Shown here in pieces: positions 5,127 to 44,016 of a stretch of 64,000 bases of DNA. Under the pieces are notes generated by a model. The model saw only the letters and a list, made by a program, of their open reading frames with translations. It had not been told where the DNA came from and made no database searches. The stretch lies in NCBI GenBank assembly GCA_018350325.1, contig JAEVLN010000003.1, forward strand, positions 2,465,214 to 2,529,213. The letters run 5' to 3'. The stretch's first letter is position 1. Each line of letters opens with the position of its first letter. This stretch comes from Globodera rostochiensis (lineage: Eukaryota > Nematoda > Chromadorea > Rhabditida > Heteroderidae). The translations under genes were made by a program, and so were the position numbers.

Positions 5127-5369
5127 TTATTTTATTATATAATAAAATGAATAAATATGAAAAGCCCGGAAACGGCTCCCATTCTTGCAAAACAATTCTA
5201 ACTTTTTGTAGCGCAACTGAATCAAAAAAAGTCGCTGCGGGCGACTCATTTTGGCGAAAAAATCTTTCGAATAAATTTCTTCAGGCGATTTTCTCATCGC
5301 ATCGCCCATAAATTGGCTCATTTTTGAATGGGGCAAAACGCTGACATTGCGTGTGGACGACAAACGCAA
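5127..5369 (-). other. Conserved short open frame in the left arm
   Basis: An 80-codon open frame containing MRKSPEEIYSKDFFAKMSRP. It is preserved with the same sequence in the right arm (20112-20381, plus). No domain is recognised. Since the whole arm is duplicated, conservation between the copies is not evidence of coding. It may be a degraded exon. Confidence 0.2.
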
Positions 5370-5545
5370 CGAATGGGGCGGGGTGACAAACCGAACACTT
5401 TGACCAAATTTGAGTACAAAAAACTATTAAATAATTTGTATTTAATACACATTTTAATTTAAAGGAGAATTTAATTAATAAAATAATTTCGAATCCAATT
5501 ACCTACCTACTTTTTAATATTTCATAAATTTAATTGTCTTCCAAA

Positions 5546-7203
5546 ATGTCCGATCATCCACGAGAAGCTCATCGACATCTGAAAAAACTGTAATTTTCTT
5601 TTTTTCATGCTTAAATTGTAATAAACTTAAAATATAATTTTCAACCATTTTTTTAATAATTTGCTTGTTAACGCTAGCGGCACTATCGGGCCGCCACTAA
5701 AAGGCTAAAATGAATACGTTAGGTCGCGAGGCTTCTTACTTTGATTAATTCGATAAAATAAAATGATTAAAATCCACGTTTAAAGAATTGGTAAAAAATT
5801 CTCGCCATGCGAACCTTTGACCTATCTAATTGGAAAATTTAAAATCTTGATTGAATTTCCCCCAAAAACGCGTTAAATTTAAAGCCAATAATTTCCAGAA
5901 AAGTTTGCGACGACGTTTGGTTGAGCATTTTCCCATTCTTTGAACCTGCCGAGCTCGGGATGAAATTGGCACTGCTCTCAGACCGTTTCGATGCACTGGT
6001 GGAGTTGCACTTCAAAACCAGGAAATTTACAATTGGAACTTTTCAAATTCATAATTCGAATTGCCGCAGTGGCGTGGTGATTGCCACATATAATATCGTC
6101 GATTTGATCTTCATGAAATTTCCGATTCCTGAGGCACCAGCGCCTGACAATTTAATCGGCTTCGGATGCATTTACATTAGATGCACCGGGTCGGCAGGGA
6201 TTTTAAGGGAAATCGGTCGCAATGAAAAGGGCGGGATCGATTTTGCAGTCGGGATTGAGATTAGTCGGGATTTACAAGATCAAAGATAGCCGATCCTGAT
6301 CTACTCAGTTGTAACTGGAGTAGGACGGCATCGGGATTTTTTTTTTTTGGTAATCGTGAAAGCCGGGATACAACTTTTTGAAAACCGGGGCTTAGATCGA
6401 GATTCCAAAATTCGGTATAATCCGACCGATCCCGGCCTACCCTAATTGGAACATACATTTTAATAATTGGATCGTTTTCAGACTCGACCAAACTCTCGCA
6501 GCCTCCTTTCGCCACATTCGAAGCCTTTTCAAATTGGGGATCACTTTGGAATTATACATTAGTGATGATAAACAGAAAAATTTTGCCGTCTTGGTCAAGG
6601 AGTTCTGGCCTCTGATGGCGACAAACATCAGCAAATTGATCATTGGAAACCTGAATTACGTCGTTCAACTGCGAAATTACATATCCCCCACTTTTCTGCA
6701 CGACTGCGTCAACCTCCGAGCGATCGGAACAGCCGAAGGACTCTTTTTTTGTGATTTGCCCGCAACTCCCGAGGAAGTATCTGCTGAACAGGCGGTGTTC
6801 GAATGGCTCCACACGCCATTTAAAAGTGGCATTCCGAAAATGATAAAAGGAGATTTTACTTGGACTCCCCAAAACTTCCGGAAGATGGAGGAGCTCAAAA
6901 AAGTTGTCTTTTTATTTCGTTCCTCCAAAATAAATGAAAATGTTTTAGACGTTTCTCTATGCCTCCTCTCCGGTCAGCTACATTATTTCGCGTTGTGTAA
7001 CTTTTGGCGGCGTTGAACCATTCGAACTTGAGAACGAACGAACGCAGGAGCGACTGACATATTCGAGAAGAAAATTGCGTTCCCATGTTTTTAGGTTGCT
7101 TGTGAGGGGGCCGATTGTGCGAGATGAGAAATGGGCGGAATGGGAGCTCGAAGCAATGGAGGCGTGGACAACAAAGAATAAGATTTATATTTCGTATTTG
7201 TAA
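5546..7203 (+). CDS. F-box-like family protein (cyst-nematode expansion), left copy
   Basis: Member of an expanded family of plant-parasitic nematodes with an F-box-like N-terminus, VCDDVWLSIFPFFEPAELG followed by MKLALLSDRFDALV. Exons 5546-5589, 5899-6189 and 6482-about 7016 join in phase. The central part contains KEFWPLMATNISKLIIGNL and FEWLHTPFKSGIPKM. The expected C-terminal block (PFELENERTQERL, then MEAWTTKNKIY) is present at 7017-7203 but in another frame from the first stop at 7014, so either a tiny intron or an old frameshift lies near 6950-7000. A nearly identical copy with the same break is on the right arm. The role is presumably as a substrate adaptor; this is inferred only from the F-box-like start. 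Confidence 0.6.
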
Positions 7204-18269: not shown

Positions 18270-19934
18270 TTACAAATACGAAATATAAATCTTATTCTTT
18301 GTTGTCCACGCCTCCATTGCTTCGAGCTCCCATTCCGCCCATTTCTCATCTCGCACAATCGGCCCCCTCACAAGCAACCTAAAAACATGGGAACGCAATT
18401 TTCTTCTCGAATATGTCAGTCGCTCCTGCGTTCGTTCGTTCTCAAGTTCGAATGGTTCAACGCCGCCAAAAGTTACACAACGCGAAATAATGTAGCTGAC
18501 CGGAGAGGAGGCATAGAGAAACGTCTAAAACATTTTCATTTATTTTGGAGGAACGAAATAAAAAGACAACTTTTTTGAGCTCCTCCATCTTCCGGAAGTT
18601 TTGGGGAGTCCAAGTAAAATCTCCTTTTATCATTTTCGGAATGCCACTTTTAAATGGCGTGTGGAGCCATTCGAACACCGCCTGTTCAGCAGATACTTCC
18701 TCGGGAGTTGCGGGCAAATCACAAAAAAAGAGTCCTTCGGCTGTTCCGATCGCTCGGAGGTTGACGCAGTCGTGCAGAAAAGTGGGGGATATGTAATTTC
18801 GCAGTTGAACGACGTAATTCAGGTTTCCAATGATCAATTTGCTGATGTTTGTCGCCATCAGAGGCCAGAACTCCTTGACCAAGACGGCAAAATTTTTCTG
18901 TTTCTCATCACTAATGTCTAATTCCAAAGTGATCCCCAATTTGAAAAGGCTTCGAATGTGGCGAAAGGAGGCTGCGAGAGTTTGGTCGAGGCTGTCGAGT
19001 CTGAAAACGATCCAATTAATATGTTCCAATTAGGGTAGGCCGGGATCGGTCGGAATTATCCCGAATTATGAAATCCCGATCTAAGCCCCGGTTTTCAAAA
19101 AGTTGTATCCCGGCTTTCACGATTACCAAAAAAAAAAATCCCGATGCCGTCCTACTCCAGATACAACTGAGTAGATCAGGATCGGCTATCTTTGATCTTG
19201 TAAATCCCGACTAATCCCAATCCCGACTGCAAAACTTAATCGATCCCGCCCTTTTCATTGCGACCGATTTCCCTTAAAATCCCTGCCGACCCGGTGCATC
19301 TAATGTAAATGCATCCGAAGCCGATTAAATTGTCAGGCGCTGGTGCCTCAGGAATCGGAAATTTCATGAAGATCAAATCGACGATATTATATGTGGCAAT
19401 CACCACGCCACTGCGGCAATTCGAATTATGAATTTGAAAAGTTCCAATTGTAAATTTCCTGGTTTTGAAGTGCAACTCCACCAGTGCATCGAAACGGTCT
19501 GAGAGCAGTGCCAATTTCATCCCGAGCTCGGCAGGTTCAAAGAATGGGAAAATGCTCAACCAAACGTCGTCGCAAACTTTTCTGGAAATTATTGGCTTTA
19601 AATTTAACGCGTTTTTGGGGGAAATTCAATCAAGATTTTAAATTTTCCAATTAGATAGGTCAAAGGTTCGCATGGCGAGAATTTTTTACCAATTCTTTAA
19701 ACGTGGATTTTAATCATTTTATTTTATCGAATTAATCAAAGTAAGAAGCCTCGCGACCTAACGTATTCATTTTAGCCTTTTAGTGGCGGCCCGATAGTGC
19801 CGCTAGCCTTAACAAGCAAATTATTAAAAAAATGGTTGAAAATTATATTTTAAGTTTATTACAATTTAAGCATGAAAAAAAGAAAATTACAGTTTTTTCA
19901 GATGTCGATGAGCTTCTCGTGGATGATCGGACAT
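18270..19934 (-). CDS. F-box-like family protein, right copy
   Basis: Paralogue of the 5546-7203 gene on the opposite arm. Exons 19891-19934, 19291-19581 and about 18460-19000 join in phase. Start MSDHPREAHRHLKK, F-box-like VCDDVWLSIFPFFEPAELG. The third exon has a 6-bp in-frame insertion (LDS-LDQ) and a few substitutions relative to the left copy (LELDISDEKQ against LELYISDDKQ). The C-terminal block is again in a shifted frame, as in the left copy, so the shift is older than the duplication or reflects a very short intron. Function unknown. Confidence 0.6.
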
Positions 19935-20514
19935 TTTGGAAGACAATTAAATTTATGAAATATTAAAAAGTAGGTAGGTAATTGGATTCGAAATTATTTT
20001 TATTAATTAAATTCTCCTTTAAATTAAAATGTGTATTAAATACAAATTATTTAATAGTTTTTTGTACTCAAATTTGGTCAAAGTGTTCGGTTTGTCACCC
20101 CGCCCCATTCGTTGCGTTTGTCGTCCACACGCAATGTCAGCGTTTTGCCCCATTCAAAAATGAGCCAATTTATGGGCGATGCGATGAGAAAATCGCCTGA
20201 AGAAATTTATTCGAAAGATTTTTTCGCCAAAATGAGTCGCCCGCAGCGACTTTTTTTGATTCAGTTGCGCTACAAAAAGTTAGAATTGTTTTGCAAGAAT
20301 GGGAGCCGTTTCCGGGCTTTTCATATTTATTCATTTTATTATATAATAAACAACGTTTTTTTCAATAAATTAAAATGCTAAAGACTAAATTGGACAAGCA
20401 TTGGGCGTCAATTCGAATTCGAATTTAATTCATTTTCCCGCCGATGCTCGAGGCCGAAAATGAATGTGAATAAAAGATGTGCAAATGATCAAATATATTC
20501 AGAACGTGGCTGTA

Positions 20515-38614: not shown

Positions 38615-41400
38615 TCACCTCTTTCGCCCCCGTCCCCCCTCTTCTTTCACTCCTCCTCCTCCTCTGACTTGGACTCCGTCCGGCGACAGCAATCCGTTCA
38701 CCGCCGGCGCTGTATAATGGAGTTTGTTTCCGTCGTTGTTGACCGCCGACCCGTCCTCCATTTCCGTGATCATCATCCCGTTGTTGTTGTTGTGTTGCTG
38801 TTGTTGTTGTTGAACCCTTCTCCTGGCGGCCATCTCTTTGCTGCTACCTGCTGGCAAGGTCGAGCAGAGCGAAGTGCCGGAGATGGAAAAGATGGACGAG
38901 TCGACGGAATGTTTGCTGATCGGGTCGGAGAGGCTGGAGATGTAAGTGCGGCAGGGCGAATTGCCGGGTTCCATGCGGGAAATGCTGCGACAAGAGGCGG
39001 CCGAATTGGACAGCGAACAGTGCGAAAGGGTCCACGTCGTTTTGCCCGAGGGGCACGGAGTGATCGGAATGGCGGCAAAAACGTCGTCAATGGCTTTTCG
39101 GCCGCCGCCAAAACGACACTTTGGAGGCCCGACGGTGTCGTCGATGGAGGCGGACAGGAAAGTGTGCAGGGAGTACAGACGGAGCGATTGGAGAATGCAC
39201 AGAACGGAGGAGAAGAGAAGTGCCAGAAGGGCTTAACGGAATGGAATGGAACACCGTGACAATGTGTGTGGAAGCAGGGGGAGGACAAGGGCATTTTGGG
39301 GGATGTACACAAGAGAAAGCGCCTAAAAATCCCGAGTTTTTGAATCCGATACACTCGGCACATGCGAGACCAAGATCCGGGGACATTCCCTGCATGAATT
39401 GACGAGACAACAGACCTGCGGAGACACTCATCCAGAAACAGGCACCAAAGCTGGAACAAGTGGATGATGGTGGTGTTTAATGGGAGTGAGAGACGGTTGG
39501 AGACTTACCGGAAGTGCATGAACACCGGGGAGGGGGCGTCGGGGGACGGGAAAGGAATGTGCAAGTCGGATGGAGACTGTGCGATGAACAGCTTAATGTT
39601 GAGACAAAGACATTAGCAGCTTTGACCTTCGAGGGCGTGTGAATGTCGGGGGGATCGGTGTCCCCAACCCCGGGGGGTTTTACGGCACATGTCTGTGGAG
39701 GGCATTTTCTTCATTGGCACCAAAGGGTGGGGGGCGGGTAACAAAAAGTTTGATTATGCGGCCGTGTTTATTCATGCTTGGTCCTGCTGTTAAACACTTA
39801 GAAGACACTGACTGACTGACGTACCACATCCGCGGCCAGTGTCAGAACGCCACAGAGCAGTCCGGCTTTGGCAAAATGATGTGGCAAAAGTGGCAGGAGA
39901 AGGCACTGCAGCAGCCATACAGAAAAAGAGGCCCTGTGTATTGACGGCATCACTTTATGCTCACATGGAACAATAATTTGGGCAAAGAATGGCATTTTGC
40001 CAAAACTGACCAGAGAACGGCGATTGTGAAATGACCCGCGTTTCGGAAATGGCGTCCCCATGCAAAGGCTTCTTGACCGCCCATGCAAAAGTACTGAAAA
40101 TGGTTCATTAATCTTGCATACGGTTTCTGAAAAAGTTTTTAATAATTCTATATCTATTTTAAAAAAAGAATTAAAGTTAATGGAAGAAATAGGAATAAAA
40201 GTTTTGGTTATTCATTTAGGCAGTTCTTTAGGACGTTCTATAGAAGAAGGTTTAGATCAAATTGTTAAAGGAATAGATATTATATTGGACGAATGTAAGT
40301 CAGGAATTATAGCTTTAGAAAATTCTAGTAATTTATAAAAGGATAGGAGGATCTTTTGATCATATTTCTTGTATAATCGATAACGTTAAAGACAAAATAT
40401 TAATCGTTGTTGTTGTCAGGGTTGCCATCGGTAAAACCCAAAAACGTGGAAAATTTTGTCAAAAACGTGGTAAAGCCTTTAATTTAATAAAAATTGTTCG
40501 AAAAATCATTAACTAGCATATTTATCACCATTTTTACTATTTTGAGCAAATTTGGTTGAGAAAGAAAGTAATTATGTATGCCAGGCCCGTGAGTCAGAAA
40601 TTATTTTTTTAGGGAGGGGCAGTTGGGGGAAAAAGTCGAAACGTGGTAAATCCCACGTTTCCGGGGCAAAATGCAACCCTGGTTGTTGTTGTTGTTCACC
40701 CACCTCGAGAACTTTGAGCATTGGAAAGGGTATTCCGTCCGTGTACGTCTTGCGAAGTCCGTCAGTCATTGCACTGACTTTGTCCAGTTTGAACTGTTCG
40801 TTGAGAAAAAGTTCTGTTGGGATGGCGCTTAAAGTGTCCAACTGCAGCTATGTCATGCAAATACATTCACTGGGTTTGGGTTTTTACCTCCGTTGATCGT
40901 TTGTGAAAAAGTCATGCGGACGAATGTCTGCAAAAGAACAAAATGTCACTGATCAACAACAACAACGACAAAACAACAACAAAAAATCGGCTTACATTTT
41001 AACGAAATGTTCATTGAATGGAGACCAACCGAAACGCCCATGCGGACAACATGGCGTTGTCGCGAGTGCGCCTGGAGATGGACAAGCACTTCTGGTGAGG
41101 TGACATTCACTTTCCAGAATGGGAGAACAATGGAACCTCAAAGTGGCAAAACAAAAATATGTTGCAATTGGCGCCATTTATAGCACCGATTAGCATGACA
41201 CCGACGGCGAGTTGGACAGCGATGGTCAGCAGGGAGAGGGCGCGCTGTTCACGAATGCCGGGGAGTACAATGAGAAGCGCGATAAGCAGCAGGGGAAAGG
41301 CGGCGAAAGGGAGCAACAGCTGGAGCAGGAAGGGGGGAATGGGGGACGATTTAGCGGCTCTCTCTCTCTATTAATGAGGCTAATTTTGTGAAGGAGTACT
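38615..41400 (-). CDS. doxa-1: Dual oxidase maturation factor
   Basis: Multi-pass membrane protein needed to bring dual oxidase (BLI-3 in C. elegans, cuticle cross-linking) to the surface. Transmembrane part at 41160-41340 (FPLLLIALLIVLPGIREQRA). Extracellular loop exons include SPEVLVHLQAHSRQ, VGLHSMNISLK with its N-glycosylation site, and ELFLNEQFKLDKV. Exon 40704-onward ends PMLKVLE and joins in phase to 40011-40093 (FAWGRHFRNAGHFTIAVLW). Later exons are SFSVWLLQCLLLPLLP, SFGACFWMSVSAG and ALLALLFSSVLCILQSLRLY. A long hydrophilic tail with a Gln/Asn run (QQQQQQHNNNN) ends at 38615. The start codon is unresolved. The intron 40094-40703 holds foreign and mobile DNA. Confidence 0.82.
40094..40405 (+). 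pseudogene. Endonuclease IV (Nfo) fragment, AT-rich, inside a DOXA intron
   Basis: The plus frame reads ENGSLILHTVSEKV, LKKELKLMEEIGIKVLVIHL, GSSLGRSIEEGLDQIV, IIALENSSNL, then a stop. After a one-base shift it continues GGSFDHISCIIDNVKDK. This follows the middle of endonuclease IV: the IELG-type helix, the H-x-GS metal/DNA site, the LEN(T/S) motif, and the following I-I-D-x-V-x-DK helix. Codons are strongly AT-ended, unlike all flanking exons. N- and C-terminal parts are missing. It is broken by the frameshift and lies antisense to the DOXA gene. Origin from a bacterial or microsporidian genome is inference. Confidence 0.82.
40417..40681. mobile_element. hAT-like MITE, 265 bp
   Basis: Terminal inverted repeats CAGGGTTGC at 40417 and GCAACCCTG ending at 40681. 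Both ends are flanked by GTTGTTGT, consistent with an 8-bp target-site duplication (the flank is itself a GTT repeat, so this is not unique). Sub-terminal ACGTGGTAAA motifs occur inside. No coding capacity. Confidence 0.65.
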
Positions 41401-44016
41401 CGGAAGTTGAAGGGCTGCACGGGGCCCAGGGCGGCAGACGCCAAAGAGCCCGAGGCGATCCCTTGGGAAATTGAAGCAAGCATTTTGCCGGAAGCGCAAA
41501 AATTGCTAAACGGGGGAAATAATAATATATGGACAGCCAGAAAGTTGAGCGATCGGGCCAGTTAAAGAACACTGCTCGAGGGGCAAAAAGAGGGGGGAAT
41601 GGACACCGACATTTGGGGGAACGAAACGGGCGGGGGAGGGAGGAGGGCAATCAAATTGACTGATGATCACTCCGTTCGTTTTGTCGTAAACATTAATTGA
41701 GGAAGTGGAAGGAATGGATGATCAATTGGTTTTGCACATTAATTTGGACATTATAAACGGGACGGGGGGGGGCAAAACGGCGCCCGAACATTTTGGCCCA
41801 TTCTCGTGGCCAATGAGCGGCCGGCCATGGCGCTTCTCATCGCCTTCCCCCCAATCTCTTTTTTGGGACGACGAATGGGACGGACGACTTTTGTTTCATC
41901 TGGCGGCTATAGGGAGAGGGAGAGGGGGGGGATTTAATTGTCATGGGTTGGACCATCTCTGAAAGGTGGTGGCCGGGAGGGTGGGGGGGGAACAGGTTTA
42001 GGGGTTTGGGCCCGGGGGATGTGACCACATTGACCATTCATCAGCTTGTGGAGGAGGCTGGGAGCAGGGGAGGATCAATTAGGGGGGAAGGGACGGGCGG
42101 GGGCTGTTCACCGTTCATCGACGAAATGCACCAATAGATTTGGGGGGGGGGGATGGCCTTTTCACAAATTGGGTGAAGAACACACGAAAGAATGTGGAAT
42201 TTATCGACGACAAATCGGCAGATGGAGCAGATGAGGTCAGCAATTTGTAATCATTTCTAAAATTGGAATTTGGTGGGTGACGACGAGTAAACGCCTTGTT
42301 CTCGCCGCCGCCGCCACCCATTCGCAGATTATTTGGAAAGGGACGACCGACCGACCACCAGACAACAACCAACAAACACCCACCAGTGATCTGCCCGTTG
42401 AAAGGGTTGGGGGATTGGCCCAATGGCCCCCCGGGGGGCGGGAGCAAAATACGTTGCGCAAACAACTGACTGCTGGCTGCACTCTCTCCTGACACCATTC
42501 AGTGCACCCCGCGCAGGTTGCCGTCTGTGTGTGTTGTCAATCCCTTTGCAAGTGAAAGGAGGGCAATGGGAGGAGGGGGGGGGGGAGGGAATGAATGGGG
42601 GGGGGGTAGGGGTACCCCCCCCTCACTCTCCCCCTTTTTGGTACTTTCCCCTCCCATCCCGGGACAAAAGATGATCATGGCGACGGCGGTGGTGGTGGTG
42701 CTGTTGAGGGGAGTGGCTGGCTCGCCCTGGAGTCAATTGGACGGCAAATATTCAAAGAATGGGGGGGAGGGGAGGGGGGGAGACTGGATGGGTGGCGGGC
42801 GGATCAATGCAAAACACCCAAATTCCTTTTCTCCAATGTCTCAGCTGCTGGCCGAGTTTTCGCCCCGAAGGTTGAGGACCCCCCCCCCCCCCCCATTTTC
42901 TTCCGGAAAGGTTTTGAGTTTTGTGAGAGAGGGAAAAAGTGACGAATTGTGGGAAATGGAACCTTTAAATGGTGCCATTTTATGGTTTTGTTGTCAGCCG
43001 TCTCCACAATTGCCTTTGGGAATTGCCAACTCATTGGCGCCATTGAGTCACCACCACCCCTTTTGAGCGGTGGGACCCCCGGGGGGGGGGGGGGGGGGGA
43101 GTCGAATAAAAAAATAATTGGAATTTCGATCTCTGAGAGGAGTGACACCCCTCCGGCCTCCCCTCGGGCCCCCCCCCCTCCGGCCCCCTCCCCTCCGGCC
43201 CCCTCCCCTCCGGCCCCCTCCCCTCCGGCCCCCCCCCTCCGGCCCCCTCCCCTCCGGCCCCCTCCCCTCCGGCCCCCCCCCTCCGGCCCCCTCCCCTCCG
43301 GCCCCCTCCCCTCCGGCCCCCCCCTCCGGCCATACTCATTCCTCCCATTACCCCCCCCCCCCCACGGCGGTTTTGTGGTGTAAAATTGTGAACATTGTTG
43401 CCGCACCCCTTTAACTCTTCCTCCCCCTCCTCCTCCTCCTCCTGATGAGGCCATTCAATCCTCGTGTTGAACACGCCAATAACAATAAAAATCAAAAATT
43501 TTTTTTTTGCATTTTTTGATAGTCAAGAATGGCGGGGGCGAATGCGGGGATTTGTTTTGACGGGAACGAACGAAGCTCGGAAAAAGTAGGAGAAGTGCGG
43601 GGGGCGGGGGGGGCGCGAATTGGTACGCCGTGGGGGAGGGGATTATTGTGTTGATGGTGAGGTTAGCACAATTCACCCCGGGGGGGGCGGATTGCCTGGG
43701 TGACACTTTCTGAGTAAATTCCGTTGATTGAGCAGTTTTGTTGAATGGGCTTTTGGCACTTTCGGCAAATAAAATTGGAGCAATTTCAGTCTCGAAAAAA
43801 ATTCACAAATAAATTCCTTCAAATAAAAAGCAACTGACATGGAAAGGATGTGAAGCTATATGTACAATGTCTCAAAGACTCCCTAACGTTGTCTGTTCCG
43901 CTAAATATTGACAAAAAAACACATTGGAAATGAACAAAGAACGAATGCGACCCATGGGTCTGATCAGTCAGTTCATGAAGCTTTCTGATCAATTAGTCCA
44001 TAAGCTTTCTAATCAG
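41401..44016. other. Low-complexity region without a recognised gene
   Basis: G-rich and C-rich simple sequence with runs near 42570, 42890 and 43082, and a 15-bp tandem repeat at 43141-43330. Open frames are artefacts of simple repeats. Some 5' exons of the DOXA gene may lie near 41400-41480. Confidence 0.5.
43141..43330. repeat. 15-bp CCCTCCCCTCCGGCC tandem repeat
   Basis: About 12 units of CCCTCCCCTCCGGCC with some 14-bp variants (CCCCCCCTCCGGCC). Gives Pro/Ser or Gly/Arg repeats in every frame. Confidence 0.93.

Follow-up and report, generated by a model that had tools for sequence, protein, structure and literature searches.

A decayed endonuclease IV fragment of bacterial type and a hAT-type MITE in an intron of the Globodera rostochiensis DUOXA gene

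Results

A 610-bp intron of the dual oxidase maturation factor (DUOXA) gene of Globodera rostochiensis is mostly made up of two pieces of DNA, a decayed fragment of a bacterial-type endonuclease IV gene (nfo) and a hAT-type MITE (Table 1). Our preferred explanation, to which we give a probability of about 85%, is that an AT-rich bacterial nfo fragment entered an old, short DUOXA intron and decayed there, with the MITE beside it. The locus looks like a genomic fossil and not a newly made intron. The first-pass annotation of this DNA had described the intron as foreign endonuclease IV DNA plus a MITE, and proposed that the captured DNA had created or replaced it; the description of the contents is borne out below, but intron gain, similarity reaching the exon border and a foreign acceptor are not. 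All positions refer to the window, which is the whole 64,000-nucleotide stretch of DNA analysed.

Table 1. Features of the DUOXA intron and its flanking exons, in window coordinates.
Feature	Position	Strand	Basis
DUOXA exon upstream of the intron, ending ...PMLKVLE, phase 0	40704..40827	-	DuoxA match, DUOXA1 alignment, gene model
DUOXA exon downstream of the intron, starting YFCMGGQEAF	40011..40093	-	DuoxA match, gene model
610-bp phase-0 GT-AG intron (GTGGGT...TTTTCAG)	40094..40703	-	gene model
Host-like 5' end of the intron: donor GTGGGT and start of AAC repeat	40690..40703	-	sequence
3' end of the intron with acceptor TTTTCAG, host or foreign origin both possible	40094..40106	-	profile edges
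Decayed bacterial-type endonuclease IV (nfo) fragment	40107..40402	+	profile and family matches
nfo fragment, main frame	~40120..40332	+	
nfo fragment, next frame	40337..~40402	+	
nfo fragment, third frame (INLA)	40107..40118	+	
ATTAATC at the left edge of the nfo fragment, one of two copies of a 7-bp direct repeat (chance possible)	40107..40113	+	
ATTAATC, right copy of the same repeat	40399..40405	+	
265-bp hAT-type MITE	40417..40681	.	terminal inverted repeats CAGGGTTGC/GCAACCCTG
Left 8-bp target-site duplication of the MITE, GTTGTTGT	40409..40416	+	
Right 8-bp target-site duplication of the MITE, GTTGTTGT	40682..40689	+	

The flanking exons are parts of a single DUOXA gene

The minus-strand gene starting at 41483 is a DUOXA gene, located at 2.5 Mb on a contig of 5.54 Mb (C23) in an assembly of 92.6 Mb and 80 contigs. 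In a seven-exon model, its introns measure 80, 50, 68, 60, 610 and 77 bp. The exon frames are open over the modelled part, which is equivalent to residues 1-239 of the 292-residue Globodera pallida protein A0A183C3Q0 and identical to it at 231 of 239 positions without a gap. This match spans the junction between VLE and YF at which the 610-bp intron is placed, and the G. pallida protein carries the same junction, known there from the protein, which does not tell whether the gene has an intron at this point. Joining the two flanking exons on the minus strand (40827-40704 and 40093-40011) in phase 0 yields ...PFPMLKVLE/YFCMGGQEAF..., a peptide that matches the DuoxA family (PF10204) at 8e-16 and aligns weakly with human DUOXA1 (E=0.07), with a two-residue gap a few residues past the junction. 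The family match and the G. pallida alignment across the junction confirm the in-phase exon join of the first-pass annotation, and the intron is probably spliced out in the living animal.

The intron contains a broken piece of an endonuclease IV gene

The 80-residue translation of 40096-40335 scores above the cut-off of PF01261 (33.6 bits against 31.1; 4.2e-8) and also matches TIGR00587 (E=1.3e-11, 44.3 bits, profile positions 80-146 of 279) and the structure of Thermotoga maritima endonuclease IV (7.3e-12). The best relative in one local protein set scored 64.4 bits, compared with a maximum of 12.4 bits in 200 residue shuffles. The reading frame has a break near 40335 and probably a second one near 40119, in agreement with the frameshift first noted in this DNA. 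Beyond the break near 40335 the continuing frame reads KRIGGSFDHISCIIDNVKDKI, which alone is only a marginal match (0.088), and a profile of 41 relatives aligns over both frame pieces at 83 bits.

The fragment covers about one third of the protein in a broken frame, its 44.3 bits stand against a whole-protein cut-off of 129.65, and it differs at 6 of the 15 columns that are at least 95% conserved. Judged by its sequence, the piece is a dead fragment and not a working member of the family. Over 75 codons its GC content is 25%, with 36, 25 and 13% at codon positions 1, 2 and 3. The third-position value lies within the range of the 22 relatives measured (3-73%) and resembles that of the AT-rich ones, and the first-position value is below those of all 22 (41-73%). 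Two further properties are weaker signs by themselves: 113 of 5000 base shuffles contain an open stretch as long as the longest one here (80 codons), and a GC content of 28% or less occurs in 32 of the 3188 windows of 240 bp slid along the 64 kb, the nfo region being one of several.

A single copy of the fragment was found in the genome. In a tblastn comparison at E<=10, the fragment and the endonuclease IV-like gene of the host itself, on contig C5, did not match, and a copy of the host's own gene was rejected as the source. Five other AT-rich islands in the 64-kb window, inspected by eye, showed no obvious bacterial coding.

The best named matches to the fragment are bacterial

The best named matches to the fragment are Spiroplasma chrysopicola (64.4 bits) and S. 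syrphidicola (62.9 bits), both at 43% identity, followed by Thermotoga (50-54 bits), Staphylococcus (44.0), Mycoplasmopsis (37.1) and Escherichia coli (35.1). Among the matches listed, the best come from Spiroplasma, other Bacilli and further proteins at 40-46% identity, and those reaching the highest value, 46%, group with Bacilli in the tree. Yeast Apn1 belongs to the E. coli-like type of endonuclease IV. By these scores that type fits the fragment less well, though Staphylococcus and Mycoplasmopsis also score no higher than 44.0 bits.

In a first scan of genome contigs, no close bacterial donor was confirmed. A scan of prokaryote genomes with alignment A1, through a pattern favouring Bacilli, gave 406 stretches, of which 327 were relatives; the best 80 of the 327 were kept. 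The sampling as a whole was mostly Bacilli. At 1e-6, matches were found in 103 of 320 genomes of one order (best 55.6 bits) and in 116 of 395 genomes of one class (best 52.8 bits), two overlapping sets composed of prokaryote genomes only. Plasmids gave three records, the best from Spiroplasma citri at 37% identity. The padded fragment alone returned 104 candidates from the protein database and no match at 1e-3, and a mixed profile returned at least 7999 matches, with 46% as the highest identity among the best 120. No close bacterial donor was found, 46% being the highest identity among the matches listed.

Trees were built from 102 columns. For the larger one, 59 proteins were picked by hand and four went unused (L112, which was absent from the set, and P0017, L018 and L099, in which the region could not be cut out), giving 56 rows including the fragment. 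This tree places the fragment beside Thermotoga and E. coli with support of 27/86, and a 31-row tree places it beside Spiroplasma with 58/43. Three groupings of the fragment were compared and none was rejected (p-AU 0.30-0.43). The fragment, whose branch is some 4 changes per column long, has no supported place in these trees, and hence no donor is named. The first-pass annotation had suggested such a search and tree in order to trace the DNA to a bacterial symbiont or a microsporidian; the search returned bacterial-type endonuclease IV proteins but the tree gave no supported position.

The very long branch, together with a comparison set that held no microsporidian proteins, leaves some room for a donor that was a microsporidian, another eukaryote or a virus, which we consider improbable. 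The named best matches are bacterial (several of the searches covered prokaryote genomes only), and E. coli reaches 35.1 bits compared with 64.4 for S. chrysopicola. A viral source was dropped, as not one relative was confirmed in four viral-contig scans; a phage search yielded two records, both of Listeria phages, at E=0.01. The donor was probably a bacterium.

Foreign similarity ends short of the exon border

Codon-level similarity to endonuclease IV had been said to start directly at the exon border, so that the acceptor would be the complement of foreign ENGS codons. The family profile aligns from about 40117, with an envelope from about 40108. The family motif INLA lies just upstream in another frame, at 40107-40118; adding it raises the profile score from 80.4 to 87.0 bits, as much as is reached by 18 of 2000 shuffled prefixes, and similarity fades by about 40101. 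The nfo similarity therefore ends about 7-14 bp before the splice site. As INLA is in a different frame and the profile starts at about 40117, the ENGS codons are outside the nfo frame, and neither statement about the border finds support. On this alignment, the 7-14 bp adjoining the exon, including the acceptor TTTTCAG, cannot be called foreign.

The two ATTAATC copies might mark the boundaries of the fragment. A repeat of this length arises in 6% of shuffles, or in 12% when pairs inside the fragment are counted (0.06-0.12), and as a boundary mark it is only suggestive.

An in-frame candidate acceptor, TTTTTCAG, lies inside the nfo fragment at 40127-40134 on the minus strand, 33 nt upstream of the modelled acceptor. 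Its use would make possible an isoform of DUOXA with 11 extra residues (KPYARLMNHFQ).

A hAT-type MITE occupies the donor side

The MITE named in the first-pass annotation is confirmed by its terminal inverted repeats and by an 8-bp duplication on both sides, the marks of a hAT-type element. A genome search with it gave at least 54 matching rows, some of which are parts of one element (40 of 132 candidates were scored). A perfect 8-bp duplication was present at four of the eight loci examined (L002, which is the intron copy, L004, L005 and L006); L003 and L009 have no terminal repeat pair, and L007 has a pair with unequal flanks. The intron copy shares its CAGGGTTGC ends and 8-bp duplications with hAT-type MITEs elsewhere in the genome and, at 265 bp, falls well below the 669-761 bp of three other single elements that were measured. 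Since the MITE insertion site is outside the nfo fragment, the sequence leaves both orders of the two insertions possible.

At the remaining locus, L008, two hAT-type elements are apparently nested, with matching outer flanks (GGTCCGTA) and matching inner flanks (ATGCATAT).

A short intron very probably preceded the foreign DNA

The intron position, which it had been proposed to compare among relatives, can be examined in P0124, the open translation of a contig of 2446 bp from a public metagenome. P0124 is 41% identical over 44% of the query. It reads ...DGLPFPMLRVLE-ASANRKNKRKINYFFLQ-YFSLGQDAFSWG..., with the 17-residue insert ASANRKNKRKINYFFLQ, equal to 51 nt and free of nfo sequence, exactly at the VLE/YF junction. 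In a shifted frame, the sequence downstream of the insert can give the next DUOXA exon at 14 of 14 residues, compared with a maximum of 12 in 500 permuted controls, and we therefore read P0124 as genomic sequence, not spliced, from a nematode relative. Under the genetic code, the first two inserted residues allow GCAAGY and the last two TTGCAG. The insert would be best explained as an ordinary 51-nt GC/AG intron, here in a single relative seen as a protein translation only. Introns of the GC/AG class are given in PMC4901422 as 3.46% of G. rostochiensis introns and 2.36% of those in Rotylenchulus.

The intron itself points the same way. Removing the MITE with one copy of its duplication, and the fragment with one copy of its repeat, leaves a GT-AG intron of 45 bp, compared with 50-80 bp for the five other DUOXA introns modelled. 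On this one relative and on the leftover length, a short intron was probably present before the foreign DNA.

De novo intron gain was considered after a second DUOXA gene in the same genome, a paralog on contig C4, was seen to be continuous across the site (EWLEKGLPYPILQVVEYLSVDRTGF), with no intron there. By itself, this intronless paralog would also fit a gain, in which the bacterial fragment, alone or together with the MITE, hit coding sequence and supplied the splice sites, as in proposals of double-strand-break repair. The two elements do make up most of the intron, and PMC3443670 discusses an intron derived from mitochondrial DNA. P0124 speaks strongly against a gain, with an insert in a relative that resembles an intron, has no nfo and sits at this very junction. 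In addition, the nfo similarity ends 7-14 bp from the acceptor and an AAC repeat stands on the donor side, so that host-like sequence of intron size is left over. An orthologous site without the intron was not found, as P0124 has the insert and the C4 gene is a paralog and no ortholog. We dropped intron gain on the P0124 insert and regard it as very unlikely. Intron replacement, the other form of the first proposal, describes the event less well than insertion into a short intron does.

The C4 paralog (L118, contig C4:93500-98500) was also compared by eye along its length, and its introns agree with those of the gene in the window at some sites and differ at several.

The least probable alternative, symbiont or contaminant DNA wrongly joined during assembly, is extremely unlikely, as the exons to either side of the 300-bp insert come from the same gene, 2.5 Mb into a 5.5-Mb contig, and the insert is next to a genomic MITE whose duplication is clean. 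The assembly has no ftsZ match by a search that finds ftsZ in 13 of 14 control genomes, and no clear bacterial gene in a 16S search with 5 of 1146 candidates scored. The 16S search gave four 1.8-kb matches, taken from their length as nuclear 18S genes, and two weak pieces.

Discussion

These observations are consistent with a simple scenario. The DUOXA gene of a cyst nematode would have had a short intron, some 45 bp long, at the VLE/YF codon junction. A piece of about 300 bp from the endonuclease IV gene of an AT-rich bacterium would have been inserted, antisense to the host gene and probably through double-strand break repair, and a non-autonomous hAT element would also have entered the intron, within the AAC/GTT repeat towards its donor end. 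The nfo fragment would have no function, being spliced out with the intron while it decays. This would be an event of a known kind that is well preserved, and function is not expected.

The insertion can be compared with the Wolbachia fossils of Dictyocaulus viviparus, described in PMC4046930 as nuclear insertions of symbiont DNA. In both, a piece of a bacterial gene lies in a nematode chromosome with a broken frame and apparently neutral decay; here, however, only one short piece was found and no donor is named, in a comparison without Wolbachia proteins. A review (PMC3443670) describes introns gained from organelle DNA through double-strand-break repair. These are alike in that much of a spliceosomal intron is foreign DNA. 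They differ in that here a short intron very probably came first and was then enlarged by inserted DNA. Among the titles listed by literature searches, none describes this intron.

The Cardinium strains cEper1 and cBtQ1 are arthropod strains. According to PMC6232779 they have an endonuclease IV, and Cardinium has been reported in G. rostochiensis (PMC12842512, PMC6232779), with a genome GC content of 33.5-41% given for Cardinium in PMC12842512. The fragment differs in having 25% GC, and 13% at third positions; this is a comparison of GC only, and a Cardinium donor is still possible. A more speculative reading, which we hold to be doubtful, is that a symbiont or associate of cyst nematodes, very AT-rich, undescribed, since lost and other than Cardinium, left the fragment behind as its trace, that more pieces lie elsewhere in Globodera, and that the complement of the fragment may supply part of the 3' splice region.

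The intron provides a single clear case of bacterial-type DNA in a nematode spliceosomal intron for which the state before insertion is partly recoverable. It also warns against taking foreign DNA that fills an intron as a sign that foreign DNA made the intron. The donor, if found, could reveal a past symbiont of cyst nematodes.

Elsewhere in the window, the AT-rich sequences at 5330-5720 and 19750-20120 are very similar to each other and lie in opposite orientation. Both hold a near-identical open frame of 60 codons (WRPDSAAS...KFMKY), and the pair is probably a repeat element.
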